A DNA stretch of 64,000 nt from Chitinophagaceae bacterium. GTDB taxonomy: Bacteria > Bacteroidota > Bacteroidia > Chitinophagales > Chitinophagaceae. Under the pieces are notes generated by a model, which saw nothing but the letters and a program-made list of their open reading frames with translations, ran no database searches and was not told where the DNA came from. This document shows, one piece after another, positions 3,824 to 33,357 of the stretch. The stretch covers positions 1 through 64,000 of the forward strand of contig JACSRW010000026.1 of assembly GCA_014879565.1 (NCBI GenBank). The letters run 5' to 3'. The translations under genes and the position numbers were made by a program. The stretch's first letter is position 1. Every line of letters begins with the position of its first letter.

Positions 3824-5227
<1,404 letters not shown>

Positions 5228-5275
5228 TTAGTTATCAGGTCTTAATATGGAATCTTGCTGAGTGATGAGCTTTTT

Positions 5276-5310
5276 GCCTTTACTGATTATTGATTACTCA
5301 TTACTCATTA
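5276..5310 (-). repeat. 7-bp stutter starting at the tnaA stop codon
   Basis: On the minus strand five 7-bp units follow in phase from the TAA stop: TAATGAG twice, then TAATCAA, TAATCAG and TAAAGGC. Because 7 is not a multiple of 3, the TAA falls in every reading frame. Part of the family of stop-anchored spacers seen across the window. Confidence 0.8.
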
Positions 5311-6684
5311 CACATCGACAGGTTTAAGTTTGGCGGTAAAATGTCTCAGTAATGGGGTTTCTTCCGTTATGATCATTCCCTTCAGTTCATTCCGTTTGTT
5401 GAATACTTCAATGATCACTTCTGCCACATAATCAATATGGCTTTGGGTGTACACCCGTCGCGGAATTGCCAGTCGTACCAGTTCAAGAGTGGCCGGAACC
5501 AGTTTACCGGCGGTATCATATTTACCAAACATAAGCGACCCGATTTCCACGGCTCTGATGCCGCCTGCTTCATAGAGTGCACACACGAGGGATTGTCCCG
5601 GGTATTGGTAAACGGGAATATGCGGCAGAAATTCCCTGGCATCCAGGTACACTGCATGGCCACCGGCTGGCTGCATGACGGGAACGCCGGCCTCCACCAG
5701 TTTCTGGGTCAGGTATTCAATACTGCGGATCCGGTACTGCAGATAGTGCTCATCCATGACTTCCTGTAAGCCGATGGCAATCGCTTCCAGGTCACGGCCG
5801 GCCAGTCCTCCGTAGGTCGTAAAGCCCTCGGTTATGATCAGCAGGTTCCGGCAGCTAACCGCCAGTTCCGGGTTTTTCATTGCGAGGAATCCGCCAATAT
5901 TGGCAAATGCGTCTTTCTTGGCACTCATGGTGCATCCGTCGGCATAAGAAAACATCTCACGGGCAATCTCCGGCACCGGCTTGCCGGCATAACCATCTTC
6001 CCGGAGTTTGATAAACCAGGCATTTTCAGCAAAACGGCAGGCATCTATGTATAACGGGATGCCATATTCATCACAAACTTTCCGGGTATCGCGGATATTC
6101 TGCATGCTCACCGGTTGTCCGCCTCCGGAATTGTTCGTGATAGTGAGCATAATCAGCGGTATACTTGAAGCCCCTTTTTCCTCAATGGTTTTACGCAGCA
6201 GGGAAATGTCCATATTTCCCTTAAAGGGCGCGGGAATGGAAGGATGTTTGCCTTCCTCACATACACAGTCTATGGCTTCTGCGCCGGAGAATTCAATATT
6301 GGCCCGGGTAGTGTCAAAAAAGGTATTACTGATAAAATTTTTTCCTTTCCCTCCCAGGATGGTAAAAAGAATTTTCTCCGCCGCCCGGCCCTGGTGGGTG
6401 GGTATGATAAATGGCATGGCGGTAATACTCCGGACCGAATCTTCAAATTTGAAGAAACTGTTGCTGCCGGCATAGGATTCATCACCGAGCATAATACCTG
6501 CCCATTGGTTACTGCTCATGGCGCTGGTACCGCTGTCGGTGAGCAGGTCAATCAGGATATCACTGGCTTTGATGCGAAAGGAATTATAATCAGCTTTCCG
6601 GAGGATCTCCGTGCGTTCTTCCCGGGTGGTAAAAAAGATGGGCTCCACCGATTTTATACGGAAGGGTTCTATGATTGTTTTCAT
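5308..6684 (-). CDS. tnaA: Tryptophanase
   Basis: A 458-aa PLP lyase converting tryptophan to indole, pyruvate and ammonia. It aligns along its length with E. coli TnaA. Landmarks are IIPTHQGRAAE, the TITNNSGGGQPVSM segment, cofactor-binding DACRFAENAWF, the PLP lysine in SAKKDAFANIGG, and the tryptophanase-specific loop GIRAVEIGS (TPL has MERG there). The C-terminus LLRHFTAKLKPV matches TnaA LRHFTAKLKEV. It is a paralogue of the downstream tpl. The ATG at 6684 lies 12 nt after a GC-rich hairpin (6697-6711), and a leader of about 120 nt with a small Trp-containing ORF precedes it, so attenuation or RBS control is plausible. Confidence 0.93.
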   Translation of the reverse strand: MKTIIEPFRIKSVEPIFFTTREERTEILRKADYNSFRIKASDILIDLLTDSGTSAMSSNQWAGIMLGDESYAGSNSFFKFEDSVRSITAMPFIIPTHQGRAAEKILFTILGGKGKNFISNTFFDTTRANIEFSGAEAIDCVCEEGKHPSIPAPFKGNMDISLLRKTIEEKGASSIPLIMLTITNNSGGGQPVSMQNIRDTRKVCDEYGIPLYIDACRFAENAWFIKLREDGYAGKPVPEIAREMFSYADGCTMSAKKDAFANIGGFLAMKNPELAVSCRNLLIITEGFTTYGGLAGRDLEAIAIGLQEVMDEHYLQYRIRSIEYLTQKLVEAGVPVMQPAGGHAVYLDAREFLPHIPVYQYPGQSLVCALYEAGGIRAVEIGSLMFGKYDTAGKLVPATLELVRLAIPRRVYTQSHIDYVAEVIIEVFNKRNELKGMIITEETPLLRHFTAKLKPVDV

Positions 6685-7380: not shown

Positions 7381-7402
7381 ATCCTAACCCCTCAACCTCT
7401 CA
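7381..7402 (-). repeat. 8-bp stutter seeded by the hypE stop codon
   Basis: From the TGA stop the minus strand reads TGAGAGGT, TGAGGGGT, TAGGAT. The stop motif is repeated with period 8, which puts stop codons in successive frames. Confidence 0.7.
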
Positions 7403-8437
7403 ACATATCCTCGGCAACTGTTCCCCCGTAAGATAATTCACCACCCGTCGGCCGCCAATACGGCTTTGCAGTAAAACTTTACCGGGATGTTCCGTTTTTA
7501 CTTCCCCGATAAGAGCTGCCTGTTTTCCGTTTTCATCTTCCCGGAGGGCGGTGAGGAAAGCATCGGCAATATCCGCTTTAACCACAGCGAGAAACAATCC
7601 TTCATTGGCTACATACAGCGGATCAAGGCCGAGCATTTCGCAGGCGCCTTCCACCTGTTCGTCAAAGGGGATATGTTTTTGTTCCAATTCATAACCCAGT
7701 TGGGTGAGTTCCGCAATTTCATTCAGTACGGATGCGATACCACCCCGGGTCGGATCGCGCAGAAAACGAATGCCTTCCCCGAACCGGTCAAGTAATTTCA
7801 TCACTGTATGATTCAGATTGATGGTATCACTCTGTATCGTGGTTTCAAATTCCAGTCCTTTACGTACGCTCATAATCGCTATACCATGTGTGGCTACGGG
7901 TCCGCTGATCAGAATCCGGTCACCCGCTTCAATCCGGCTGTGATGTATAGCGGCTTTCGGATGTACCTGGCCAACACCGGAGGTATTGATGAAAATTTTA
8001 TCGCCCTTTCCTTTTTCCACCACTTTGGTATCGCCGGTTACGATCTTGACTCCGGCTCTTTCAGCCGCGTTTTTGATACTGACCAGGATTTCCCAGAATT
8101 CGGTCATCGGCAGCCCTTCCTCAATAATAAAACCGAGGGATAAATACCGGGGTATGGCCCCGCACATGGCCAGGTCATTAACGGTGCCATTCACGGCAAG
8201 TTCACCGATATTTCCGCCCGGGAAAAACGCGGGCGTGATCACATAACTGTCGGTACTGAATGCCAGTTTACCGGGTAATTCAAAACTGGCTCCGTCGTGT
8301 TGCTGATCCAGCAGATCATTTTTAAACAAATCAAATACCCCGCTCTGCAACAGCTTGTGCGTAAGTAATCCGCCACTCCCGTGTCCGAGGGTAATTACAT
8401 CAAAGTCAAGCCGGGGCATGGGGCAGGAGAGTTGCAT
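7400..8437 (-). CDS. hypE: Hydrogenase maturation protein HypE
   Basis: A 345-aa member of the PurM/SelD-like ATPase family. HypE dehydrates the thiocarboxamide that HypF forms on its C-terminal cysteine, giving the CN ligand of the [NiFe] site. N-terminal ITLGHGSGG, DPTRGG in the middle and the invariant C-terminal PRIC ending in the acceptor cysteine are all present. Last gene of the minus-strand hyp unit, 9 bp after the TonB receptor gene, so clearly co-transcribed. A second in-frame ATG at 8419 is possible; family members start close to the ITLAHG motif, so either is compatible. Confidence 0.95.
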   Translation of the reverse strand: MQLSCPMPRLDFDVITLGHGSGGLLTHKLLQSGVFDLFKNDLLDQQHDGASFELPGKLAFSTDSYVITPAFFPGGNIGELAVNGTVNDLAMCGAIPRYLSLGFIIEEGLPMTEFWEILVSIKNAAERAGVKIVTGDTKVVEKGKGDKIFINTSGVGQVHPKAAIHHSRIEAGDRILISGPVATHGIAIMSVRKGLEFETTIQSDTINLNHTVMKLLDRFGEGIRFLRDPTRGGIASVLNEIAELTQLGYELEQKHIPFDEQVEGACEMLGLDPLYVANEGLFLAVVKADIADAFLTALREDENGKQAALIGEVKTEHPGKVLLQSRIGGRRVVNYLTGEQLPRIC

Positions 8438-8446
8438 GATAGTGGT

Positions 8447-10702
8447 TTAAAAGAAAAGAGTAAAACTAAGCCGGGCGAAAAACGGGGTGCCGGGGGTAAA
8501 ATGGATTTCTGAAACAGGCGCTGATTCATTGAACAAACGACTTTCTGTATCAAACTGCGTTTCCTTCCACCGGGCATCAAACAGGTTCTGTATACTGAGA
8601 CCGGCCTCCCATTTTTTGCGGCTAAAATTCAGCGCCGCATCCGCGACAAAATATCCTTTTGCGAGTACTGAATTATCCTCGTTGGCCGGCCGGTCAGCCA
8701 TATACCGGTAACGAATACTGCCATTCCATCCGGACTCACGGCGCCAGGTGAAGCCGCCTACACTGGTAAACCGGGGGGCAAGGGGTAACCTGTTTTCCGC
8801 TTTAGGTACATCAAGGGCACGGGGATCAGCGATACTGAAATCCATATCTGCATAAAGGTTCTTCAGCAATTCGTACCGGAGGGAAAGATCCCAACCGAGC
8901 CGGCGGGTGCGGCCGCCCGGTTCCACTACGCCTTCATCTCCTACATATACAAACTCCTGTTTCATCCACATATACCAGAACGCAGTTTGCAGCATGGCTT
9001 TTTTACCCAGTTTAACAATGGCGCCGAGATCACTGCCCCAGGCAGGGGTCACCACTTCTTTGCCATCCTGCTGTACGGCAACACGGGTGTCGTTGCTGTG
9101 AAAGCCCTGGCCATTCTGCCAGTATAACTGTACCTGGTCATTGATCCGGTAATTCAGGTTCAGTTTGGGACTGATTATGGCAGACTGTGAACGACCTGTG
9201 ACACTGGTCAGCAGGTCTTCATACCGGTTGCTGAAATGATCTGCCCGTATACCGAGACCCAGGTCCACTTTATTGCTGAGAAATATTTTTTCCTGCAGAA
9301 AAATTCCGGCGTTCAGTTCCCGGATATTGCCCAGGGCAATCCGGCTGCTGGTGATGGTCCGGTTAACTGTGCGGGAGAGTTCATTGTTATGAACGGCATC
9401 ATACCGGAAACCGGCCCCCGTAATAAAACGGCTTCTTTTCCCGAAAAGTGAATGGTCCTGCTGATAACTCAGGGTATAACCCAGGATATCTCTTTTTTCC
9501 TTTTGCCGGATCTGGTCGCCGTTTACGGGATCTTCCTTGAAAAAGGTAAAGTTGGAATACAACTCAAATTCGTAGCGGGAGTAGTATAACTGGTTGCGTA
9601 ATACGGCCCCGTTGGTGAGATTATGTAAAAATTCAGCGCTGGCATTATACCTGGCGGTATTGCCTCCTTCCTTATCATCAATCGCGCCAAAGAATCCGAT
9701 ACTGCCATCTTCAACCGCCCGGTCTGGTATCTGACCACTGGCATTCCACTTACTTTTAAGGGCACTGACCAGGGCAGTCAGGGAACTGTTTTTTCCGGTG
9801 CTGCCATGGTATTTAATCATCCCGTTCAGGCGGCTGAAATCCTGCGGACTGTCAAAGTAACCCTGCGTAAATGACCCTTCCCCGGCAATATACAGACTCT
9901 GGTTTTTCTCCCGGGCACCTGCTGAAAGCAGGTTGATGCCCGTGATCGCCCGCAGCGTATTATATTGTCCGCCTTCCAGTTTGGCAAAATTATGCTGAAG
10001 ATGATTTTTAGTCCGGAATGAAACATAACCGGCTGTGGCGAGATTGCCTTTGTCGGCATCAAAGGGCCCCTTACTGAAATTTACTTTTTCAATCAGTTCG
10101 GGAATGACGAAATGAAGATCGGCATAACCCTGTCCGTGGGCATGACTCACCATATTTACCGGCAATCCGTCAACCGAGAGATGGATATCTGTTCCATGAT
10201 CCAGGTCAAAACCGCGCAGAAAAATCTGCTCCGCCTTGCCCCCGCCGGCGTGCTGCCCGATAAAAAGCCCGGGTACCATCCGGAGTACTTCCTGTGAGTT
10301 GACGATAGGACGAAGATGGATATCCAGATCACTGATGGTTTTAAAAACACCGGTTTTGGCAGAGGCTCTGACCAAAACATCGTTCAGGGTGGTGACACGG
10401 GTGCGGAGATACAGCGTGCCAGCCATCCATTCGGTTTCAGTGAGTTCCCTGGTTTCAAATCCCACTGCTGTAATCAGCAGTTTTTTTATACCGGCTGGCA
10501 GTTGTTTCAGGGAGACAAACCCGTTTTCATCAGAGATTTCCATAAAACTGAAATCAGAACTATAAACAGTTGCATCCGTAACAGGGGTTTTCCCGGTTTC
10601 GCTGAGCAGGGTAAGGCCAGCCGGTTTGCCCTGGCCGGCAACAGCCAGGCTGAAAGTCATCCATAAAGTAAGCAGCCAATTTTTTTTCATGGTTTGCGGC
10701 AT
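8447..10702 (-). CDS. TonB-dependent outer-membrane receptor embedded in the hyp operon
   Basis: A 751-aa protein with a signal peptide (MKKNWLLTLWMTFSLAVAGQ; an ATG at 10690 is an alternative start), a carboxypeptidase-regulatory-like domain (about 30-105), a plug domain (about 120-240) and a 22-strand barrel ending in an aromatic residue (SFTLFF). The plug has an unusual His cluster, SHAHGQGYADLHF, preceded by DLDHGTD, which suggests metal-chelate contact. It sits between hypD (23 bp upstream) and hypE (9 bp downstream), so its product is made together with the nickel-hydrogenase maturation proteins. The best hypothesis is uptake of nickel or a nickel chelate. The substrate is not known from sequence, and heme, zinc and cobalt remain possible. 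Confidence 0.9.
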   Translation of the reverse strand: MPQTMKKNWLLTLWMTFSLAVAGQGKPAGLTLLSETGKTPVTDATVYSSDFSFMEISDENGFVSLKQLPAGIKKLLITAVGFETRELTETEWMAGTLYLRTRVTTLNDVLVRASAKTGVFKTISDLDIHLRPIVNSQEVLRMVPGLFIGQHAGGGKAEQIFLRGFDLDHGTDIHLSVDGLPVNMVSHAHGQGYADLHFVIPELIEKVNFSKGPFDADKGNLATAGYVSFRTKNHLQHNFAKLEGGQYNTLRAITGINLLSAGAREKNQSLYIAGEGSFTQGYFDSPQDFSRLNGMIKYHGSTGKNSSLTALVSALKSKWNASGQIPDRAVEDGSIGFFGAIDDKEGGNTARYNASAEFLHNLTNGAVLRNQLYYSRYEFELYSNFTFFKEDPVNGDQIRQKEKRDILGYTLSYQQDHSLFGKRSRFITGAGFRYDAVHNNELSRTVNRTITSSRIALGNIRELNAGIFLQEKIFLSNKVDLGLGIRADHFSNRYEDLLTSVTGRSQSAIISPKLNLNYRINDQVQLYWQNGQGFHSNDTRVAVQQDGKEVVTPAWGSDLGAIVKLGKKAMLQTAFWYMWMKQEFVYVGDEGVVEPGGRTRRLGWDLSLRYELLKNLYADMDFSIADPRALDVPKAENRLPLAPRFTSVGGFTWRRESGWNGSIRYRYMADRPANEDNSVLAKGYFVADAALNFSRKKWEAGLSIQNLFDARWKETQFDTESRLFNESAPVSEIHFTPGTPFFARLSFTLFF

Positions 10703-10725: not shown

Positions 10726-11817
10726 TTAAACCGTGCCGGACGAATAATGATAATAGGCGGCACAGGCTCCTTCACTGCTCACCATCGGGGCGCCGAGAGG
10801 GTGCTCGGGTTTACACTGGGTGCCAAAATTCGGGCACTCAAAGGGTTTTTTCAAACCTTTCATAATATCTCCGCTGATGCAGGAGGGGTTTTCCCGGGCC
10901 AGGGGGATATCAATCCGGAATTTTACCCGGGCATTATAATTTTTGTACCGGTCATTGACTTCAAATCCGCTCTGGGGAATAGTGCCGATACCTCTCCACA
11001 TCCGGTCGCTTACCGAGAAAACCTGCTCCATGGTTTCTTTGGCCATGCGGTTGCCTTCCCGTTGCACATACCGTGTATATTGGTTCTCCAGTTTGTATTC
11101 TCCCTTTTCCAGTTGCTGTACGGCCATCAGGATACCCTGCAGCAGGTCCACCGGTTCAAAGCCGGTGATCACAACCGGGGTTTTATATTTTTCCACCACG
11201 GGATAATACTCTTCCATGCCCATGATGGTGCAGACATGTCCGGCGGCCAGGAATGCGTCAATCTGGTTTTCGGGGTCGCCCAGGATGGCTTCCATAGCCG
11301 GTGGCACCAGTACATGGGAAGCCAGAATGCTGTAATTGGGAACGTCGCTTTTATCAGCATGTATGATACTGAGAGCATTGGCCGGAGCGGTGGTTTCAAA
11401 CCCCACGGCAAAAAAGACCACTTCCTTATCCGGATTTTCCTGCGCCAGTTTTACGGCTTCTAGCGGAGAATAGAGAATACGGACATCTGCTCCCTCCGCT
11501 TTGGCATCCAGCAGACTTTTTTCGGATCCGGGTACCCGCAGCATATCCCCGAAGGAACAAATAATCACCTGTGGCTGACGGGCCAGAAATACCGCTTCAT
11601 CAATAATACTGACCGGGGTTACACAAACCGGACAACCGGGTCCATGTACCATGGTAATCTGTTCCGGCAGCATTTCCAGAATACCGTTTTTAACCAGGCT
11701 ATGAGTCTGCCCGCCGCAGATCTCCATGATTTTCCAGGGGCGGGTGGTTACCTGGTGAATCTGTTCCAGGTATTGTCTGACGAGTTCAGGATCGCGGTAT
11801 TCGGAGAGGAATTTCAT
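10726..11817 (-). CDS. hypD: Hydrogenase maturation protein HypD
   Basis: A 363-aa protein that with HypC forms the scaffold on which Fe(CN)2CO is assembled. Seen are MEICGGQTH near the N-terminus, GPGCPVCVTP with the conserved cysteines, and the C-terminal [4Fe-4S] region with CISGDIMKG, PFECPNFGTQC and EGACAAYY. Length is normal. It starts 39 bp after the hypC stop, with the spacer filled by a 7-bp stutter that ends at its ATG. Confidence 0.96.
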   Translation of the reverse strand: MKFLSEYRDPELVRQYLEQIHQVTTRPWKIMEICGGQTHSLVKNGILEMLPEQITMVHGPGCPVCVTPVSIIDEAVFLARQPQVIICSFGDMLRVPGSEKSLLDAKAEGADVRILYSPLEAVKLAQENPDKEVVFFAVGFETTAPANALSIIHADKSDVPNYSILASHVLVPPAMEAILGDPENQIDAFLAAGHVCTIMGMEEYYPVVEKYKTPVVITGFEPVDLLQGILMAVQQLEKGEYKLENQYTRYVQREGNRMAKETMEQVFSVSDRMWRGIGTIPQSGFEVNDRYKNYNARVKFRIDIPLARENPSCISGDIMKGLKKPFECPNFGTQCKPEHPLGAPMVSSEGACAAYYHYSSGTV

Positions 11818-12116: not shown

Positions 12117-14438
12117 TTATGTCAGGTCCGGCTCCAGAGCTTTCCGGGCCTGTTGTTTTAAAGAATGTTGCTCCCATGCGAAATACGCCAGCTGACCAAA
12201 GCCAATGCATTCATCATTGGGACTAAGTTCTCTGTGAAAATACAGTTTATAATCTTTTCCAAGCTGTTCTGTTAACAGTTCAATCAGCAGTGTATTCTGA
12301 AAAACACCCCCGCTGCAGGCAATTTTTTTCACCCCGGCGTTTTGAGCCACCAGCCGGATCATTTCCACCAGGGTGAGAAAGACTTTCCGGGCGATTAAAG
12401 CTACCTGAAGACCGCCTGCCTGGTCCTGCAAAACACCGGCGATCATCGGGGCCCAGTCAAGCTGGTTCTGGCTTATGGATACCGGATAAGGCGCTGCGGA
12501 AGTATCCGTACATTTTCGGGCAGCCACTTCCAGTTTCATGGCGGCTTCTCCTTCATAGGAATTGAATGACTGCAAACGGAGTATCGCCGCGATGCCGTCG
12601 AGGAGCCGGCCCATACTGGAAGTACTGAGGGGGAGGGGCTGCTGCAGCAATTTCAGGTAGAATTCTCTTTCCTGCGGCGAAAAGAGATCGCGGATCGTCA
12701 TCAGCTGGTCTATATCTTTCCGGAGAAGGGAAACAGCGGAAATCCGTGGCTCCTTGCTCATTTTATCGTTCAGCAGGTGAGGAAAATAAGAAAGGTGACA
12801 GTAACGTTCCATTTGAGGACCATACAATAAGAAGAACTCACCGCCCCAGACCTGCTCATCCTCTCCATATCCGGTTCCGTCCCAGATTACCCCCAATATT
12901 TTACCGGAATGGCTGAGTAATCCATTTTCAGCCAGTACAGCAGCAAAATGTGCTTTGTGGTGTTGTATCAGGGTAAGCGGCAGTTTCCATTCTTCCGCCA
13001 GTTCCCTGCCTTTTTGGGTTACATAATATCCGGGATGGCTGTCAGCAAGTATATGTGCCGGCCGCATTTGCAGCATATCAAGCAAGTGTGATAAGGTGTA
13101 TTCGTAGGCTGATTGTGACTCAAAACCTTCCTGGTCACCCAGGTACTGGCTGACAAAAAGATTGTCCCCCTTATTGAGGGCAAAAGCGCTTTTTAGCTCA
13201 GCTCCCATGGCCAGTACGTTTTTTTCCAGGCTGAACGGAGGGGGATAATAATTGGGGGCCATACCGCGGGAGCGGCGCAGGATTACCGGTGTGTCGTTGT
13301 GACGGGTAAACTGGATGACACTGTCGTCCTGCGGCGTAATGATTTCCCGGTCATAACTGATGATGAAATCGGCGAAATCACTCAACCAGAGCAAAGCGTC
13401 TTCATCAGTATATATAATGGGACTGCCGCTGAGGTTGCCACTGGTCGCCACCAGAGGTTTGTTCCACTGATCCATAATCAGAGCCAGCAATGCTGTATAG
13501 GGAAGCATGACCCCGATCTTGTCCAGTCCTGGCGCAATGAGCTCCGTGCAAATACCAGTGCCGGTTTCATCTTTAAGCGTACACAGCACAATCGGCGCCT
13601 GTTTACTTTGCAGGGCTTTTTTTTCTTTTTCCGAAAGGTGCACATCCGCGGCGATCATCTCTGCGGAAGGATATAAGAGCGCAAAGGGTTTGGCCGGCCG
13701 GTGTTTTCTTTCCCGTAAGGTGGAAACGGAATAATACTTGGTCGCGTCACAGATCAGCAGGTACCCGCCGATACCTTTTACTGCAATAATATGTCCGTGC
13801 CGGAGCGATTCATTTACGATCAGCAGGATGCTTTCCGGGTCTTTGGTGATTTCGACTCCATTGTTGTCAAAGAGGTGCATGGGTATGGCGCAGTCAGGGC
13901 ATGAATTGGTCTGACTGAAATGGCGCCGGTCATGAATATCATTGTATTCTTCTTCACAGGCCATACACATCGGGAGGTCCGCCATAGTGGTATGGCAGCG
14001 GTCATAAGGAAGGGCCGTGCTGATGGAATATCGCGGGCCACATTCCAGACAGGTGGTAAAAGGATATAACGCGCGGCGGTTGTCCGGGTTCCTTATTTCC
14101 TGCAGGCATTGGGGACAAATGGCTATATCCGGTGTGAGTAGTAAATCGGGACTGGCTGAAGGATCACTTTCGCTGATCCGGAATGATGAGAAGGTCTGAG
14201 GCCTGACTTCTTCCATATTGTGGGAACGGATCAGGGCATTGGCCGGGGGTTGCTGAAGCAGTTTGCTGTAAAATAGCTGTGCTTCTTCGGAGCCGGCATT
14301 GAATAAAATGTGTACCCCGTCGTTTCCGTTGCTGACCTGGCCTGATATCCCCATGGAGCCGGCAGCACGGCATACAAAGGGCCGGAAGCCAACTCCCTGC
14401 ACTAATCCGCCGATATGGATATGCCAGGTACTCATCAT
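12117..14438 (-). CDS. hypF: Carbamoyltransferase HypF
   Basis: About 773 aa from the ATG at 14438 (or 14435; MMSTWHIHIGG). Domains: acylphosphatase (GLVQGVGFRPFV, about 10-90), two zinc fingers with CPQC/CLEC and CMAC/CPDC pairs (about 105-190), a YrdC-like domain (about 200-380) and a Kae1-like carbamoyltransferase domain to the C-terminus (including HHKAH and the CSGGVFQNTLL nucleotide-site motif). It transfers carbamoyl from carbamoyl phosphate to the HypE cysteine. The frame is open up to 14495 but that would overlap hypB; the later Met matches where homologues begin. Gaps of 17 bp to hypB and 11 bp to hypC mark one operon. Confidence 0.95.
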   Translation of the reverse strand: MMSTWHIHIGGLVQGVGFRPFVCRAAGSMGISGQVSNGNDGVHILFNAGSEEAQLFYSKLLQQPPANALIRSHNMEEVRPQTFSSFRISESDPSASPDLLLTPDIAICPQCLQEIRNPDNRRALYPFTTCLECGPRYSISTALPYDRCHTTMADLPMCMACEEEYNDIHDRRHFSQTNSCPDCAIPMHLFDNNGVEITKDPESILLIVNESLRHGHIIAVKGIGGYLLICDATKYYSVSTLRERKHRPAKPFALLYPSAEMIAADVHLSEKEKKALQSKQAPIVLCTLKDETGTGICTELIAPGLDKIGVMLPYTALLALIMDQWNKPLVATSGNLSGSPIIYTDEDALLWLSDFADFIISYDREIITPQDDSVIQFTRHNDTPVILRRSRGMAPNYYPPPFSLEKNVLAMGAELKSAFALNKGDNLFVSQYLGDQEGFESQSAYEYTLSHLLDMLQMRPAHILADSHPGYYVTQKGRELAEEWKLPLTLIQHHKAHFAAVLAENGLLSHSGKILGVIWDGTGYGEDEQVWGGEFFLLYGPQMERYCHLSYFPHLLNDKMSKEPRISAVSLLRKDIDQLMTIRDLFSPQEREFYLKLLQQPLPLSTSSMGRLLDGIAAILRLQSFNSYEGEAAMKLEVAARKCTDTSAAPYPVSISQNQLDWAPMIAGVLQDQAGGLQVALIARKVFLTLVEMIRLVAQNAGVKKIACSGGVFQNTLLIELLTEQLGKDYKLYFHRELSPNDECIGFGQLAYFAWEQHSLKQQARKALEPDLT

Positions 14439-14455
14439 ATTTACAATGGATGCCC

Positions 14456-15208
14456 CTATACGTTCTCGGGCAACAGTACTTTTTCCTTCAGCCACTGGTA
14501 CCAGGCGGGTAATCCTTCCCCGCTGGTGCAGCTGACTTCAATAAACCGGAGATTCGGGTTCACCTGCAGCGCGTATTCCTTCACCTTCTCCATACTGAAA
14601 GGTACATAAGGCAACAGGTCGGTTTTGTTGATAATACAAAGGGTGGATGTATGGAACATGTCGGGATACTTGATGGGTTTATCATCTCCCTCGGTGACAC
14701 TGATGATCACCACTCTTTCCTTTTCTCCCAGGTCAAACATAGCAGGACAAACCAGGTTGCCCACGTTTTCAATAAAGAGGATGGAGTTTTCCGCGGGTTT
14801 CATGCCCTGAATGGCATGCAGGATCATATGGGCGTCCAGGTGACAGCCCTTGCCGGTATTAATCTGGGCCACTTTGGTACCGGTGGCATGAATCCTGTCC
14901 GCATCCCTTGATGTCTGCTGATCCCCTTCTATAACATAGCAGGTGTATTCGTTTTTCAGATCGGTAAGGGTTCTCTCAAGCAGGGAAGTTTTTCCCGAGC
15001 CCGGTGAACTGACAAGATTCAGGGCCAGAATATTTTTGGCTTCAAAATAGCCGCGGTTACGCTCAGCCAGCAGGTTGTTCTCATACAGCACATCCTTTTC
15101 TACTTCCAGGATCGTTTTACTGTGGGAATGTCCGTGATCATGTGTGTGATCATGGCCATGATGATGGTGGGAGGAAGAGGTAGCATCACATCCGCAGGTA
15201 GCACACAT
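14456..15208 (-). CDS. hypB: Hydrogenase/nickel GTPase HypB with His-rich N-terminus
   Basis: A 250-aa SIMIBI-class GTPase that inserts nickel into the large subunit. It begins MCATCGC, the CxxCGC high-affinity nickel site, then has ten histidines between residues 14 and 29 (nickel storage), a P-loop SPGSGKT (about 68-74), the metal-switch region with GKGCHLDA, and NKTDL. First gene of the hyp run. Its usual partner HypA is not encoded anywhere in this window. Confidence 0.95.
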   Translation of the reverse strand: MCATCGCDATSSSHHHHGHDHTHDHGHSHSKTILEVEKDVLYENNLLAERNRGYFEAKNILALNLVSSPGSGKTSLLERTLTDLKNEYTCYVIEGDQQTSRDADRIHATGTKVAQINTGKGCHLDAHMILHAIQGMKPAENSILFIENVGNLVCPAMFDLGEKERVVIISVTEGDDKPIKYPDMFHTSTLCIINKTDLLPYVPFSMEKVKEYALQVNPNLRFIEVSCTSGEGLPAWYQWLKEKVLLPENV

Positions 15209-15314
15209 AAAATTCGTTTTTGGTTTATGTTTCGGTTATATCATTTACTTATACTCAGCCGGATACAGGTCCGTTTGCCGGTCCTGTAATGTATGTAAAA
15301 AGCGGCCTGACTGT

Positions 15315-15512
15315 TTATTTTTTAACAGCTGCTGAACGGTATCTCTTGTATAACAGAATACCAATGGCCAGCACGGCAATTAATCCGATGGCATGCTCTG
15401 GTTCAACGAAATAGTGCTGAATGGTGAAGCCATGTGTATGACCGTGACCTTCATGCGCAAAAGAACCGAAAGCCGTACCAAGAGCAGCCAGTGTCAGGAA
15501 ATATTTTTTCAT
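15315..15512 (-). CDS. Small His-rich single-span membrane protein beside the hydrogenase genes
   Basis: A 65-aa protein from the ATG at 15512 (MKKYFLTLAALGTAFGSFA, a signal peptide or first helix), then the motif HEGHGHTHG on the periplasmic side, a short loop with FVEPEHAIG, and a C-terminal membrane helix (LIAVLAIGILLYKRY). PEHAIG in a helix start recalls HupE/UreJ-type nickel proteins, but the protein is far too short to be HupE. The His cluster and position between hypB and hyaA suggest periplasmic nickel binding. Not recognised as a named family. Confidence 0.65.
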   Translation of the reverse strand: MKKYFLTLAALGTAFGSFAHEGHGHTHGFTIQHYFVEPEHAIGLIAVLAIGILLYKRYRSAAVKK

Positions 15513-15562
15513 ATCCGATCTTTTCAGGTTACCAATATTAAACTTCAATTCCTCCCCCCTGC

Positions 15563-15598
15563 CTGACTTTTGTCATAGAATTGTCTGACAGTAGTCAG
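15563..15598. promoter_or_regulatory. Two TGAC-N4-GTCA inverted repeats between the divergent hydrogenase units
   Basis: Site 1 CTGACTTTTGTCAT (15563-15576) and site 2 CTGACAGTAGTCAG (15585-15598, a perfect 5-bp inverted repeat) have centres 22 bp apart, two helical turns. The TGA-N6-TCA core with added C/G is the architecture bound by CRP/FNR-family dimers. They lie 50 bp upstream of the small membrane protein gene and 80-115 bp upstream of hyaA, so they could govern both directions. Confidence 0.6.
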
Positions 15599-15677
15599 CG
15601 GGATCAGGTGTTGAAATCAATAACTATGCTGACACGATTCCCCCTTTTTCTAACGGCTTTGCCATAAAACGATTTGC

Positions 15678-16805
15678 ATGGACAACGCAACAATGCAAAA
15701 ATCCCCTACTTATTTAGAGGAATTTAAAAGAAAAGGATATTCCCGTAAGGATTTCCTGAAATTCTGCACCCTGATGGCCGCCTATCTCGGGCTGGAAAAT
15801 TCATCCGTGGGACAGGTGGTGCAGGCGCTTAGTAATAAACCCAGGCTTCCGGTGATCTGGCTGCATTTCCAGGAATGCACCTGCTGCAGTGAGTCATTTA
15901 TCCGCTCCTCTCACCCGATTGTGGCGGATGTGCTCCTGGACCAGATTTCCCTCGATTATACGGAAACCCTGATGGCAGCATCCGGCCATCAGGCGGAGGA
16001 AGCGATGAAAAACACCATGACAAAGTATAAGGGGGAATATATCCTCTGTGTGGAGGGCAGTGTACCCACTGCTGCGGATGGGGTGTATTGTATGATCGGC
16101 GGTAAAACTTCATTACAGATACTTGAAGAAGCCGCTGAAGGCGCCAAAGCAATCATTGCCTGGGGCAGTTGTGCCAGCAATGGTTGTGTGCAGGCAGCCA
16201 AACCCAACCCCACATCCGCTACACCGATTCATAAACTGGTGAAAGGGAAACCTGTCATCAAAGTGCCCGGATGTCCCCCGATCGGGGAAGTGATGGCCGG
16301 TGTGATTGTACATGTGGTAACATTCGGCCGTCTGCCTGAACTTGACGGACTGGGCAGACCCAAAGCTTTTTACAGCAAACGGGTACACGATACCTGTTAC
16401 CGCAGACCCTATTATGATGCCGGTTTATATGTGGAAAGTTTCGATGACGAAAATGCGAAAAAGGGATACTGTTTGTATAAGGTCGGGTGCAAGGGGCCAT
16501 CAACCTACAATGCCTGCGGCGTGACCAAATGGAATAACGGGGTAAGTTTCCCGATACAGTCCGGTCACGGCTGTTTCGGCTGCAGCGAAGAAAACTACTG
16601 GGATAATGGCCGGATTTATCAGCGGGCTTCCGCTTTCCCGGGATTCGGCATTGAATCCACCGCCGATATGGTTGGTAAAGTGGCCCTGGGTGTTACCGCC
16701 GGTGCCCTGGCGGCGCATGCGGTGATGACCAATGTGCGCAAGAAAAAACTGATCAAAGGACTGGAAAAGGAAGGAAAGGAAAGTGAAAAAGAACTGAAAG
16801 ACTAA
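15678..16805 (+). CDS. hyaA: [NiFe]-hydrogenase small subunit, six-cysteine O2-tolerant type
   Basis: A 375-aa electron-transfer subunit of a membrane-bound uptake hydrogenase. Proximal cluster ligands are C67, C70, C165 and C199. Extra cysteines C69 (in ECTCCSES) and C170 (CASNGC) occupy the positions of C19 and C120 in E. coli Hyd-1, with matching spacing (C165 to C170 = 5, C165 to C199 = 34). This is the [4Fe-3S] signature of O2-tolerant group 1d enzymes. The distal cluster has H237, C240, C265 and C271, and the medial cluster C280, C299 and C302. The Tat signal reads SRKDFLK (R23-K24) rather than RR. A C-terminal hydrophobic stretch (about 330-350) would anchor it in the membrane. 32 bp before hyaB. 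Confidence 0.95.
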   Translation: MDNATMQKSPTYLEEFKRKGYSRKDFLKFCTLMAAYLGLENSSVGQVVQALSNKPRLPVIWLHFQECTCCSESFIRSSHPIVADVLLDQISLDYTETLMAASGHQAEEAMKNTMTKYKGEYILCVEGSVPTAADGVYCMIGGKTSLQILEEAAEGAKAIIAWGSCASNGCVQAAKPNPTSATPIHKLVKGKPVIKVPGCPPIGEVMAGVIVHVVTFGRLPELDGLGRPKAFYSKRVHDTCYRRPYYDAGLYVESFDDENAKKGYCLYKVGCKGPSTYNACGVTKWNNGVSFPIQSGHGCFGCSEENYWDNGRIYQRASAFPGFGIESTADMVGKVALGVTAGALAAHAVMTNVRKKKLIKGLEKEGKESEKELKD

Positions 16806-16837: not shown

Positions 16838-18556
16838 ATGAGTACAAGAATCGTTGTTGACCCTGTCACCCGGATAGAAGGTCACTTACGTATAGAAGCC
16901 GATATTGAAAACGGCAAAATCAAGGATGCTTACAGCAGCGGAACCATGGTCCGCCTGCTGGAGGAAATACTCAGGGGCCGCGATCCGCTGGATGCCTGGG
17001 CCTATGTGGGCCGGGTCTGCGGCGTGTGTACCTCTGTGCACTCCCTGACTTCCGTGCGGGCGGTGGAAGATGCCCTTGATATCGTGATCCCGCCCAATGC
17101 GGAAATGGTAAGGAATATCATGTTCTGCGCCCAGTATATGCACGACCATGTGGTACATTTCTATCATTTGCATGCGATGGATTGGGTGGATGTGGTGAAT
17201 GCCCTGAAAGCCGATCCGAAAAAAACATCCGAACTCGCCCAGAGTATTTCCAACTGGCCCAAATCCTCCCCCGGTTATTTCAGTGATCTGCAGAAACGGA
17301 TTACCAAGTTTGTGGAGAGCGGGCAACTGGGCATTTTCAGTAACGGGTACTGGGGACATCCGGCGTATAAACTGCCGGCGGAAGTCAATCTTATCGGACT
17401 GGCACACTACCTGGAAGCACTGGAATGGCAGAAAGAAATTGTGAAAGTGCATACCATTTTCGGCGGAAAAAATCCTCATCCCAATTACCTGGTAGGCGGT
17501 ATGGCCTGTGCAATCAGCACCGATGACGTGAGCGGATTGAATGCAGAACGACTGGCTTATGTGGAACAATTACTCAAACAGGGAAAGGAATTTATTGAAC
17601 AGGTTTATATTCCCGATCTGATGGCCATTGCCTCTTTTTATAAAGACTGGGGCGCTATCGGGGGCGGACTCGGCAGTTTTATGGCCTATGGCGACCTGCC
17701 CTGGAACGGCTACCGGGATATTTCTTCCTACAAATTCCCGCAGGGAGTGATCCTCAATAAGGATATCAGTAAAGTGTATGATGTGGATCTGCGCAAGGAT
17801 GATGAAGTGCAGGAGTTTATTGATAATTCCTGGTACGAGTACAAAGGCAAGGGCGGATTACATCCCTGGAAAGGAGAAAGCAAGATTAAATACACTGGCC
17901 CCAAACCTCCGTTTGAAAACCTGGATACCAGTAAAGCTTACAGTTACCTGAAAACACCACGCTGGAAAGGGAATGCCGTGGAAGTAGGCCCCCTGGCCCG
18001 TGTACTGGTGGGTTATGCCCGCGGACGGGAAGATTTTAAAATGGTGGTGGATAAAGCGCTCAAAGACCTGGATGTGCCTGTAACGGCCCTGTTCTCCACA
18101 CTGGGACGAACTGCGGCCCGCGGACTGGAAAGTGTGCTCGTGGCCCAGTGGGGACTGGATTTCTTCTACCAGTTAATAGATAATATTAAAAAAGGCGATA
18201 CCCGGATGGCCGACAGCAGTAAACGCAGTTCCTCCAAATGGCCGGAAAAAGCCCTGGGGGTAGGCCATTCGGAAGCTCCGCGCGGCGCCCTGGCTCACTG
18301 GATCAATATCGAGGATGAAAAAATTGCCAATTACCAGCTGGTGGTACCCACTACCTGGAATGCTTCTCCGCGGGATGCCAAAGGACAGGTATCTGCTTAC
18401 GAGGCTGCCCTGCGCGATACGCCGATTGCTGACCCGAAACAACCAGTCGAAATCCTGCGTACCGTGCATTCCTTTGATCCCTGTCTGGCCTGCGCCGTAC
18501 ACCTGTACGATGAGGAAGGCAAACATATCAGCCGGATAAGTGTACTGGGTGACTAA
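16838..18556 (+). CDS. hyaB: [NiFe]-hydrogenase large subunit
   Basis: A 572-aa catalytic subunit carrying the Ni-Fe(CN)2CO site. L1 motif RVCGVCTSVHS gives ligands C61 and C64; L2 DPCLACAVH gives C549 and C552. Seventeen residues follow H555 and should be removed by the HyaD endopeptidase after nickel insertion. IEGHLR near the N-terminus is also conserved. It is exported with HyaA by Tat as a folded complex and oxidises H2 in the periplasm. Confidence 0.97.
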   Translation: MSTRIVVDPVTRIEGHLRIEADIENGKIKDAYSSGTMVRLLEEILRGRDPLDAWAYVGRVCGVCTSVHSLTSVRAVEDALDIVIPPNAEMVRNIMFCAQYMHDHVVHFYHLHAMDWVDVVNALKADPKKTSELAQSISNWPKSSPGYFSDLQKRITKFVESGQLGIFSNGYWGHPAYKLPAEVNLIGLAHYLEALEWQKEIVKVHTIFGGKNPHPNYLVGGMACAISTDDVSGLNAERLAYVEQLLKQGKEFIEQVYIPDLMAIASFYKDWGAIGGGLGSFMAYGDLPWNGYRDISSYKFPQGVILNKDISKVYDVDLRKDDEVQEFIDNSWYEYKGKGGLHPWKGESKIKYTGPKPPFENLDTSKAYSYLKTPRWKGNAVEVGPLARVLVGYARGREDFKMVVDKALKDLDVPVTALFSTLGRTAARGLESVLVAQWGLDFFYQLIDNIKKGDTRMADSSKRSSSKWPEKALGVGHSEAPRGALAHWINIEDEKIANYQLVVPTTWNASPRDAKGQVSAYEAALRDTPIADPKQPVEILRTVHSFDPCLACAVHLYDEEGKHISRISVLGD

Positions 18557-18572
18557 CCTTAAAAAATTGATT

Positions 18573-19301
18573 ATGGCAAACGGTAAATCTGTTCATAAAC
18601 TGCGGCGGGTATATGTATGGGAACAACCCGTCCGCATTTATCACTGGCTGAATGCCCTGGTGATACTGGTGCTGATCGCCACCGGTTTTTATATTGCGGA
18701 TCCCCTGGCTTTGCAGAGTTCAAAAGAAGCATCCCAGCAGTTCACTATGGGCTGGGTCAGGATGATTCACTTTATCGCTTCCTATATTTTCTTTTTCAAT
18801 TTCCTGTTCCGCATCTATTGGGGGTTTGTGGGGAATAAATATGCCAACTGGAAACAGTTCATTCCCACTTCCCGGCGGTTTTTCCGGGAAATGTGGCAGG
18901 TGTTTAAAATGGATATTCTGATGCTGAGAGGCAAAGAACACATGAGTGTAGGGCATAACGCGATGGCGGGGTTTATTTATTTCTTCACGTTTCTTGCTTT
19001 CCTGGTGCAGTGTGTCACCGGTTTTGGTTTGTACGCTTCCATGAGTACCGGCTGGTGGTTTCCGAAATTATTCGCCTGGGTGCCGGCTATGTTCGGCGGC
19101 GATTTTTTCCTCCGGCAGGTTCACCACTGGACGATGTGGTTCTTTATCCTGTTTACCGTGATTCATGTTTACCTGGTATTTTACCACGATTATGTGGAAG
19201 GCCGGGGAGAGATATCCAGTATGGGCGGAGGCTGGAAATTTATTGAAGAAGATGTATTTGAAAAAGGAATGGATGTACCGAATGAACCCACAAAATCCTG
19301 A
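18573..19301 (+). CDS. hyaC: Hydrogenase cytochrome b subunit
   Basis: A 242-aa diheme cytochrome b of the HyaC/HupC family that passes electrons from HyaA to quinone. Four hydrophobic segments hold helix histidines: VRIYHWLNAL, WVRMIHFIASY, and RQVHHWTMWFF followed by VIHVYLVFYHDY. The ATG at 18573 (16 bp after hyaB) is preferred to the upstream frame that overlaps hyaB. Inner membrane. Confidence 0.93.
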   Translation: MANGKSVHKLRRVYVWEQPVRIYHWLNALVILVLIATGFYIADPLALQSSKEASQQFTMGWVRMIHFIASYIFFFNFLFRIYWGFVGNKYANWKQFIPTSRRFFREMWQVFKMDILMLRGKEHMSVGHNAMAGFIYFFTFLAFLVQCVTGFGLYASMSTGWWFPKLFAWVPAMFGGDFFLRQVHHWTMWFFILFTVIHVYLVFYHDYVEGRGEISSMGGGWKFIEEDVFEKGMDVPNEPTKS

Positions 19302-19305
19302 AAAG

Positions 19306-19788
19306 ATGGAAGCACGGCTGCTGATTATGGGAGTGGGCAATTACCTGATGGGCGATGAAGGAGTGGGTGTGCATGCGGCACAACTGCTTTCCCGGTTATC
19401 ACTCCCGCCGGGCGTGGATGTGGTTGACGGAGGCACCGGCGGATTTCATTTGCTCGAATACTTTGAAAAATACCCGCGGGTAATACTGATTGATGCCACC
19501 CTGGACGGGAACAAAGCCGGCAGTATCCGGCTGATCAGGCCCCGTTTTGCCGCAGACTTCCCCAAATCCATGAGCACCCATGATATCGGGTTAAAGGATA
19601 TGATGAGTTCACTGCAATTATTGGGTAAAATTCCGGATATCCATCTTTTTGTAGTCAGTATTGAATTTATCCAGCAACAAGGGGTGGAACTGACCGATGA
19701 AGTGGAGGCCGCCATGCCGGAACTGCTGCAACAGGTCACCGCCCTTACAGATAAACTGGTATTCCCGTCTGAGCCGGTTACAAACTGA
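19306..19788 (+). CDS. hyaD: Hydrogenase maturation endopeptidase
   Basis: A 160-aa protease (HyaD/HybD/HupD family) that clips the C-terminal tail of the large subunit. The start MEARLLIMGVGNYLMGDEGVG contains the family's nickel-binding Glu/Asp in GDEGVG; DVVDGGTGG and STHDIGL with the metal-binding His follow. The ATG at 19306 lies 4 bp after the hyaC stop; an in-frame ATG at 19282 overlapping hyaC is an alternative. Last gene of the hya unit, followed by a terminator. Confidence 0.92.
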   Translation: MEARLLIMGVGNYLMGDEGVGVHAAQLLSRLSLPPGVDVVDGGTGGFHLLEYFEKYPRVILIDATLDGNKAGSIRLIRPRFAADFPKSMSTHDIGLKDMMSSLQLLGKIPDIHLFVVSIEFIQQQGVELTDEVEAAMPELLQQVTALTDKLVFPSEPVTN

Positions 19789-22635: not shown

Positions 22636-22735
22636 AATTTGATAAGCTTTTGTGCCTGCAAGATTAGGGCTAATACCGGCCACTAACGGAAACACAGGTC
22701 AGCGTAAATACTGATTCTTATCAAGGAAAGGGCAT

Positions 22736-33265: not shown

Positions 33266-33357
33266 GAATATAGGAACTATGCGCTAAATGGCGGATATGA
33301 CACATATCAACGGCTTTCTTGTTCTTTGTCAGCTAAAAATTTCTGGTACGGGCAGTA

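Follow-up and report, generated by a model that had tools for sequence, protein, structure and literature searches.

A pair of FNR-type palindromes lies between divergently transcribed [NiFe]-hydrogenase and hyp maturation genes in the 64-kb stretch of DNA analyzed here (the window, part of contig C16 of a 3.43-Mb genome). We propose that the region acts as a two-way promoter, read in this genome by a receiver-Crp fusion protein that a kinase would phosphorylate at low oxygen, and read by FNR in relatives that lack the fusion; we give this reading a probability of about 60%. In the proposed mechanism, two FNR-family dimers would occupy one face of the DNA with a spacing of 22 bp. Each would lie upstream of both divergent starts, by about 40 bp for one (the class-II position, where the dimer would replace the -33 box) and by about 62 bp for the other, and a single binding event would switch on the hydrogenase and hyp maturation genes together. 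The reader in the window genome would be a fusion of receiver, cNMP-like and Crp domains encoded beside a ccoI-like gene on contig C32, and a PAS kinase encoded ~9 kb away would phosphorylate the fusion at low oxygen. An iron-sulfur FNR whose gene lies upstream of ccoI would serve as reader in relatives that lack the fusion. Coordinates are given in Table 1.

Table 1. Positions in the window of the regulatory elements and of the genes on both sides of the two-way promoter region.
Feature	Position	Strand	Basis and remarks
FNR-type palindrome 1, CTGACTTTTGTCAT	15563..15576 (core 15564-15575)	none	Sequence; conserved paired with palindrome 2
FNR-type palindrome 2, CTGACAGTAGTCAG	15585..15598 (core 15586-15597)	none	Sequence; conserved paired with palindrome 1
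-7 box of the predicted hydrogenase promoter, TAACTATG	15621..15628	+	TAnnTTTG with 1 mismatch; position kept in relatives
-7 box of the predicted hyp-side promoter, TAATATTG	15533..15540	-	TAnnTTTG with 1 mismatch; position kept in relatives
Second tandem element	33298..33331	none	1 mismatch; precedes the opening gene of a complex I operon (nuo-like, sequence look); -7-like box at offset 59
Third, weaker tandem element	22690..22723	none	2 mismatches; start of a pyruvate phosphate dikinase-like gene (sequence look)
Conserved 65-aa protein, first gene of the hyp-side unit	15315..15512	-	Signal-like N terminus, AHxGHG...HYFxEPxHA, one hydrophobic stretch
hypB	14456..15208	-	Sequence analysis
hypF	12117..14495	-	Sequence analysis
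hypD	10726..11817	-	Sequence analysis
hypE	7400..8437	-	Sequence look and place after hypD in relatives
[NiFe]-hydrogenase small subunit	15678..16805	+	TIGR00391, E 1.4e-152
[NiFe]-hydrogenase large subunit	16838..18556	+	Family match
Hydrogenase b-type cytochrome	18540..19301	+	TIGR02125
Hydrogenase maturation protease	19165..19788	+	TIGR00072; conserved part after the overlap

Each palindrome consists of two inverted TGAY half-sites separated by a 4-bp spacer, the make-up of a CRP/FNR-type site, and a protein of this family is predicted to bind there. As the preliminary description had reported, two CTGAC-N4-GTCA(T/G) sites are present with 22 bp between their centers. Both fall inside the 165-bp gap between the divergent starts of a 65-aa ORF (15512, minus strand) and the hydrogenase small subunit gene (15678), and they are the only exact matches to CTGACN4GTCAK in the window. 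Palindrome 1 is predicted to be the upstream dimer site for the hydrogenase and the promoter-proximal site for the hyp side; palindrome 2 would be promoter-proximal for the hydrogenase and upstream for the hyp side. The outer base is C in the window sites and mostly A or C in relatives, with TGAC or TGAT half-sites. Neither window site fits the strict consensus of Escherichia coli FNR, TTGAT-N4-ATCAA. Single exact cores number 11 in the window, against ~4 expected, and the tandem arrangement TGAYN4RTCA-N10-TGAYN4RTCA occurs exactly at six places in the genome, where base composition predicts 0.013.

The conservation of the pair was examined upstream of 80 named hydrogenase loci (the best 80 of 333 small-subunit relatives) which, together with the window copy, gave 81 regions; 12 were dropped as near-duplicates and 69 were counted. 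A further 24 loci (L014-L037), many of which duplicate named loci, were inspected and left out of the counts. We defined a pair as two TGAY-N4-RTCA cores at an offset of 22, with up to one mismatch allowed per core. The preliminary description had named a lack of conservation upstream of orthologous hydrogenases as the outcome that would speak against it; a pair at exactly this offset was found in 54/69 dereplicated regions, compared with a mean of 0.07 in 100 shuffles, which never gave more than two pairs at any offset. Elsewhere in the same loci, ~0.75 Mb of sequence held two offset-22 pairs. Its view that the repeats were unlikely to have arisen by chance is thus confirmed by their rarity in the genome and, above all, by their conservation across relatives. 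The next commonest offset, 23, occurred in six of the 69 regions. Both cores are exact in 30/69 (our count from the listed regions), and at least one single exact core is present in 63/69, against 1.26 in shuffles.

Alignment of the 54 elements gave the consensus (A/C)TGAY-N4-RTCA(T/G), with flanks that are almost unconserved except for the -7 boxes described below. Among the best 80 of 333, the named relatives nearest in small-subunit sequence (six loci, 92-95% identity) come from Chitinophagaceae/Chitinophagales metagenome genomes. Saprospiraceae, Mucilaginibacter and Cytophagales loci are among the 15/69 regions without a 22-bp pair, some of which have one core or a 23-bp offset instead; the sites at the Mucilaginibacter loci are G-flanked, and their second core is degenerate.

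A second conserved signal lies outside the cores. In the available text of PMC7366714, TAnnTTTG is the -7 box and TTTG the -33 box of the Bacteroidota primary sigma factor (sigma-ABfr), and that text adds Flavobacterium as another case in which no -33 motif was found. The window element carries TAnnTTTG with one mismatch on each side, in both cases at 57 bp, counted from base 1 of the far core. In the 54-element alignment, a TAnnTT(T/G) block begins 57 bp out on the hydrogenase side, and the hyp side shows this block in mirror image. With up to one mismatch allowed, TAnnTTTG stands at offset 57 in 27/54 elements on the hydrogenase side and 30/54 on the hyp side, and at offset 58 in six and seven, respectively, against a background mean below one per offset on each side (60 offsets tested). 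Boxes of this quality at 56-58 are found on both sides of 28/54 elements, on one side of 14 and on neither side of 12. Exact TANNTT at offset 57 gives 33/54 for the hydrogenase side and 24/54 for the hyp side, with 22 on both. The logo of the 54 elements has no TTTG block at -33, and the proximal core occupies its place; a core at this position is the geometry of class-II activation. Since each side has its -7 box at the same distance from the far core, the region has the layout of a mirror-symmetric two-way promoter, in which each dimer is predicted to sit at about -40 of one start and -62 of the other.

This symmetry bears on a further suggestion of the preliminary description, that FNR-type sites are common to the maturation and structural genes. 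The suggestion gains support from the conservation of the pair, from the mirrored -7 boxes and from the divergent placement of hypB in 72/80 named loci, all of which are consistent with joint control. Of the eight loci without a divergent hypB, six have less than 830 bases of contig upstream; L087 and L108 have at least 5 kb upstream and no hypB match.

The minus-strand unit runs in the order 65-aa ORF, hypB, hypF, a hypC-like ORF (sequence look), hypD, a TonB-dependent receptor gene and hypE. The window copy of the 65-aa protein has no Pfam family match. A conserved small protein (63-71 aa) with AHxGHG...HYFxEPxHA and one hydrophobic stretch opens the hyp unit in 12 of the 13 relatives displayed; L080 is without one, and the protein in L103 was read with a longer start. 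The start of the 65-aa protein resembles that of HupE-type nickel transport proteins. We considered and rejected the idea that the ORF is what remains of a longer HupE-like gene: its counterparts in relatives are just as short, and the piece that the window lacks here is hypA. This gene follows the small ORF in 10 of the 13 relatives displayed and is absent from 15209-15314 of the window; the sole HypA match of the genome is on another contig (C11:45571-45903).

Several other features of this neighborhood were recorded. The TonB-dependent receptor gene (8447-10702, minus strand) lies inside the hyp operon, and in L041 and L043 hypD is likewise followed by a relative of this gene; the receptor may serve the hydrogenase by importing nickel or a metallophore. 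The hydrogenase small subunit contains the stretch ECTCCSES, which we take to be the extra-cysteine mark of oxygen-tolerant hydrogenases. If true, an oxygen-tolerant hydrogenase controlled by a low-oxygen switch would be of interest. Two neighboring paralogous genes resembling tryptophanase/tyrosine phenol-lyase (460 and 458 aa, sequence look only) occupy 3824-6684 of the minus strand.

The same element recurs elsewhere in the genome. Five of the six exact pairs are intergenic, and the sixth lies in a 452-aa reading from an upstream TTG start, before the ATG-started OmpA-family part; five of the 21 places listed with at most two mismatches are inside ORFs. Exact or near elements are found at the nos cluster (a cytochrome c, then a NosZ-like protein, with an Rrf2 regulator divergent), in the gap between the fusion regulator and the ccoI-like P-type ATPase, and at a ccoNO-like gene, hsp20, katG, polyphosphate kinase and the OmpA-family gene. 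Another lies in the gap that separates an ScdA/hemerythrin gene, followed by the PAS kinase gene, from a 125-aa ORF that belongs to no known family. The names NosZ, ccoNO, hsp20, nuo and dikinase come from a look at the sequence and from neighborhood. Within the window, the complex I operon and the pyruvate phosphate dikinase-like gene are possible further targets (Table 1).

The nos element has perfect -7 boxes at 57 on both sides, and boxes with one mismatch stand at 57 towards ccoI and at 58 towards ccoNO. At the ScdA-kinase element, a perfect -7 box points towards the 125-aa ORF and the ScdA side is without one, as is also the case in G091. The fusion gene, hsp20, katG, ppk and the L138 ORF have no -7 box of up to one mismatch facing them. 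Among 15 exact pairs in six relatives, 11 have such a box at 56-58 on at least one side (our count). These 15 include hydrogenase (two), nos (two), ScdA, Rrf2, ccoI and ccoN regions, along with others without clear sense; gene names in relatives come from a look at the sequence, except for those matched to proteins of the window genome. Given that the element is common to nos and cco genes, we infer that the signal is low oxygen or anaerobic respiration. The redox, H2 or energy input proposed in the preliminary description can thereby be narrowed.

Three Crp/Fnr proteins are encoded in the window genome: the receiver-Crp fusion, crp7 and crp8. The fusion (353 aa) comprises a receiver domain, a cNMP-binding-like domain (cNMP_binding) and a Crp-type HTH (HTH_Crp_2), and its gene on C32 is divergent from the ccoI-like gene, with an element of two mismatches between them. 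The acidic pair, phospho-acceptor Asp, Thr/Ser and Lys expected of a phosphorylatable receiver are present in the alignment of 19 fusions. None of the three Crp/Fnr proteins of the genome has the N-terminal Cys cluster and later Cys of an iron-sulfur FNR. A full-length fusion (E <1e-100) is encoded by 16/24 hydrogenase genomes of the family. Seven of the eight hydrogenase genomes without it encode an FNR-like protein of ~235 aa with CxxC-x8-C and a later Cys, and the eighth genome is 79% complete. Both kinds are found in at least four genomes (G037, G128, G072, G278). Co-occurrence of regulator and hydrogenase proved useless as evidence for the reader, as 101/117 family genomes have a relative of the C-terminal half of the fusion and FNR.

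The nine FNR loci scanned have, after the FNR gene, first the pair, then a single small gene and then ccoI. In 6/19 loci the fusion gene directly adjoins ccoI, in the orientation opposite to that of the FNR genes. A tandem element with at most two mismatches lies within ~1.5 kb in 15/19 fusion loci and 9/9 iron-sulfur-FNR loci (our count; nine of the 11 FNR loci with aligned sequences were scanned, and several of the loci are close relatives of one another). The recognition helix ATES-x-IR is common to the 19 fusions and 11 FNR proteins aligned, with the exceptions of AKES in L171 and ATETAIR in three FNR proteins (G255, G080, G210). The helices of crp7 and crp8 read SREVISR and AREVVTR. Helix contacts alone were rejected as a discriminator, E-x3-R being present in every candidate; the candidates are separated by the neighboring Ile versus Ser/Thr and by the outer base in their sites. 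The genes crp7 and crp8 have single exact G-flanked palindromes (GTGAY...RTCAC) next to them, without a C/A-flanked pair. Directly downstream of crp7, GTGAY-N4-RTCAC occurs at positions 1636 and 2505 of L007 (C32, ~77 kb), before a TauE-like and a metallo-lactamase-like gene, respectively; directly downstream of crp8 it occurs at position 1632 of L008. These single palindromes downstream of both genes suggest that crp7 and crp8 run separate regulons. Because its helix is nearly the same as that of FNR, and unlike those of the paralogues flanked by single G-flanked palindromes, the fusion is most likely the reader in the window genome.

It is possible, although we consider it unlikely, that the same two-way promoter is read instead by crp7, which lies beside a TauE/metallo-lactamase-rhodanese-like operon, or by crp8. 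Both proteins are present in the genome with E-x3-R helices, and a weak pair (three and two mismatches) can be drawn around the single sites next to their genes. Moreover, exact pairs in relatives are found upstream of two rhodanese/SQR-like genes (G255, G126) and at the 3' end of a crp8-like gene (G066), so paralogous regulators may read similar pairs, and the rhodanese-type targets keep crp7 and crp8 in play. However, each site beside crp7 and crp8 is one exact G-flanked palindrome, and both genes are outside the nos/cco cluster (crp7 is ~60 kb off, on the contig of the cluster). By comparison, the fusion/FNR subfamily has a pair nearby in 24/28 loci scanned.

A partner for the fusion is suggested by the PAS histidine kinase gene that adjoins the fusion gene in 9/19 fusion loci (L152, L154-L161). 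The window genome has one full-length relative of this kinase (49% identity to that of L154), which has an added membrane region and whose gene, ~9 kb from the fusion gene, is not adjacent to it. FixL gives the best matches to its PAS domain among solved structures (E 5.3e-15), and the His and the Arg of GxGR are aligned; we take these to be the heme His and distal Arg of the FixL PAS. The PAS of the L154 kinase is closest to DosP, then FixL. Among seven kinases aligned, the His is present in 7/7 and the distal FixL Arg in 2/7. The FixL-like PAS with its aligned His and GxGR leads us to infer that the kinase of the window genome binds heme and senses oxygen.

That the pair represses, with dimers covering the -33 regions and blocking both promoters in the presence of oxygen, strikes us as improbable. 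The proximal core does overlap the expected place of the -33 box. However, on both sides the -7 boxes keep a constant distance of 57 bp to the far core, which would be needless for a repressor, and such fixed spacing is expected of class-II activators. In addition, the nos/cco target set resembles the set activated by FixK2 in rhizobia, as given in the accessible part of PMC7415380. Finally, chance palindromes, or a conserved structure unrelated to any Crp/Fnr protein, can be dismissed with near certainty even though single cores are common in the window, since chance is refuted by the conserved 22-bp spacing relative to shuffles and neighboring sequence, and the -7 boxes are mirrored on both sides.

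More tentatively, and at somewhat less than even odds, activation by the fusion or FNR may be one instance of a compact hypoxia circuit in this Bacteroidota family. A FixL-like kinase and a FixJ/FixK-in-one protein would replace iron-sulfur FNR in part of the family, in the same cco neighborhood and with the DNA code unchanged: mirror-symmetric two-way promoters, bound by two dimers 22 bp apart, that would couple hydrogenase and N2O reductase to partner genes. One switch would then join hydrogen uptake, cbb3 respiration and N2O reduction. The analysis offers an exact, testable promoter grammar for how a phylum with promoters unlike those of E. coli responds to low oxygen: two cores 22 bp apart and, at 57 bp from the far core, a -7 box. 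A further gain is a natural example of a sensor that apparently varies among relatives, being iron-sulfur FNR or a kinase with a receiver-Crp fusion, at unchanged DNA sites. A search of open-licence papers with a few terms, which is weak evidence, found no report of the element, the fusion, the symmetric two-way grammar or the sensor exchange.

The proposed circuit resembles FixLJ-FixK of rhizobia in joining a FixL-like PAS kinase, a receiver domain and an FNR-family output. The response regulator FixJ combines a receiver domain with a LuxR-type output, whereas the output of the fusion is cNMP_binding plus HTH_Crp_2; receiver and Crp output are here one protein, and rhizobial FixJ and FixK are two. 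The paired sites with 22-bp spacing and Bacteroidota -7 boxes are a further difference. Compared with E. coli FNR, the palindrome geometry, N4 spacer, TGA core and E-x3-R recognition helix are alike. In contrast, the outer base is C/A here and T there, the reader candidate lacks the N-terminal cysteine set, and Ile stands in place of a recognition-helix Ser that we take to be Ser212.

In the portion of PMC7415380 available, FixK2 of Bradyrhizobium controls fixNOPQ, fixGHIS and denitrification genes, and the predicted targets here likewise include the cbb3 oxidase, its assembly genes and denitrification genes; FixL senses O2 by heme, according to the available part of PMC4999443. The same portion of PMC7415380 cites an Fnr-type promoter for the hypBFCDE operon of Rhizobium leguminosarum (Hernando 1995), another case of uptake-hydrogenase hyp genes under an Fnr-type site. 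Unlike that operon, the region described here has one double site for hyp and structural genes, a symmetric two-way layout and a host of another phylum. The -7 box is shared with sigma-ABfr promoters as presented in the excerpt of PMC7366714, but a regulator core stands where those have the -33 TTTG. Crp/Fnr-type control of clade II nosZ has also been proposed for Nitrosophilus labii, a member of a different phylum from the window bacterium (PMC11539149, in the part available). What is known is thus FNR/FixK-type control; what appears new is the symmetric two-way grammar, the apparent exchange of sensors and the wiring.
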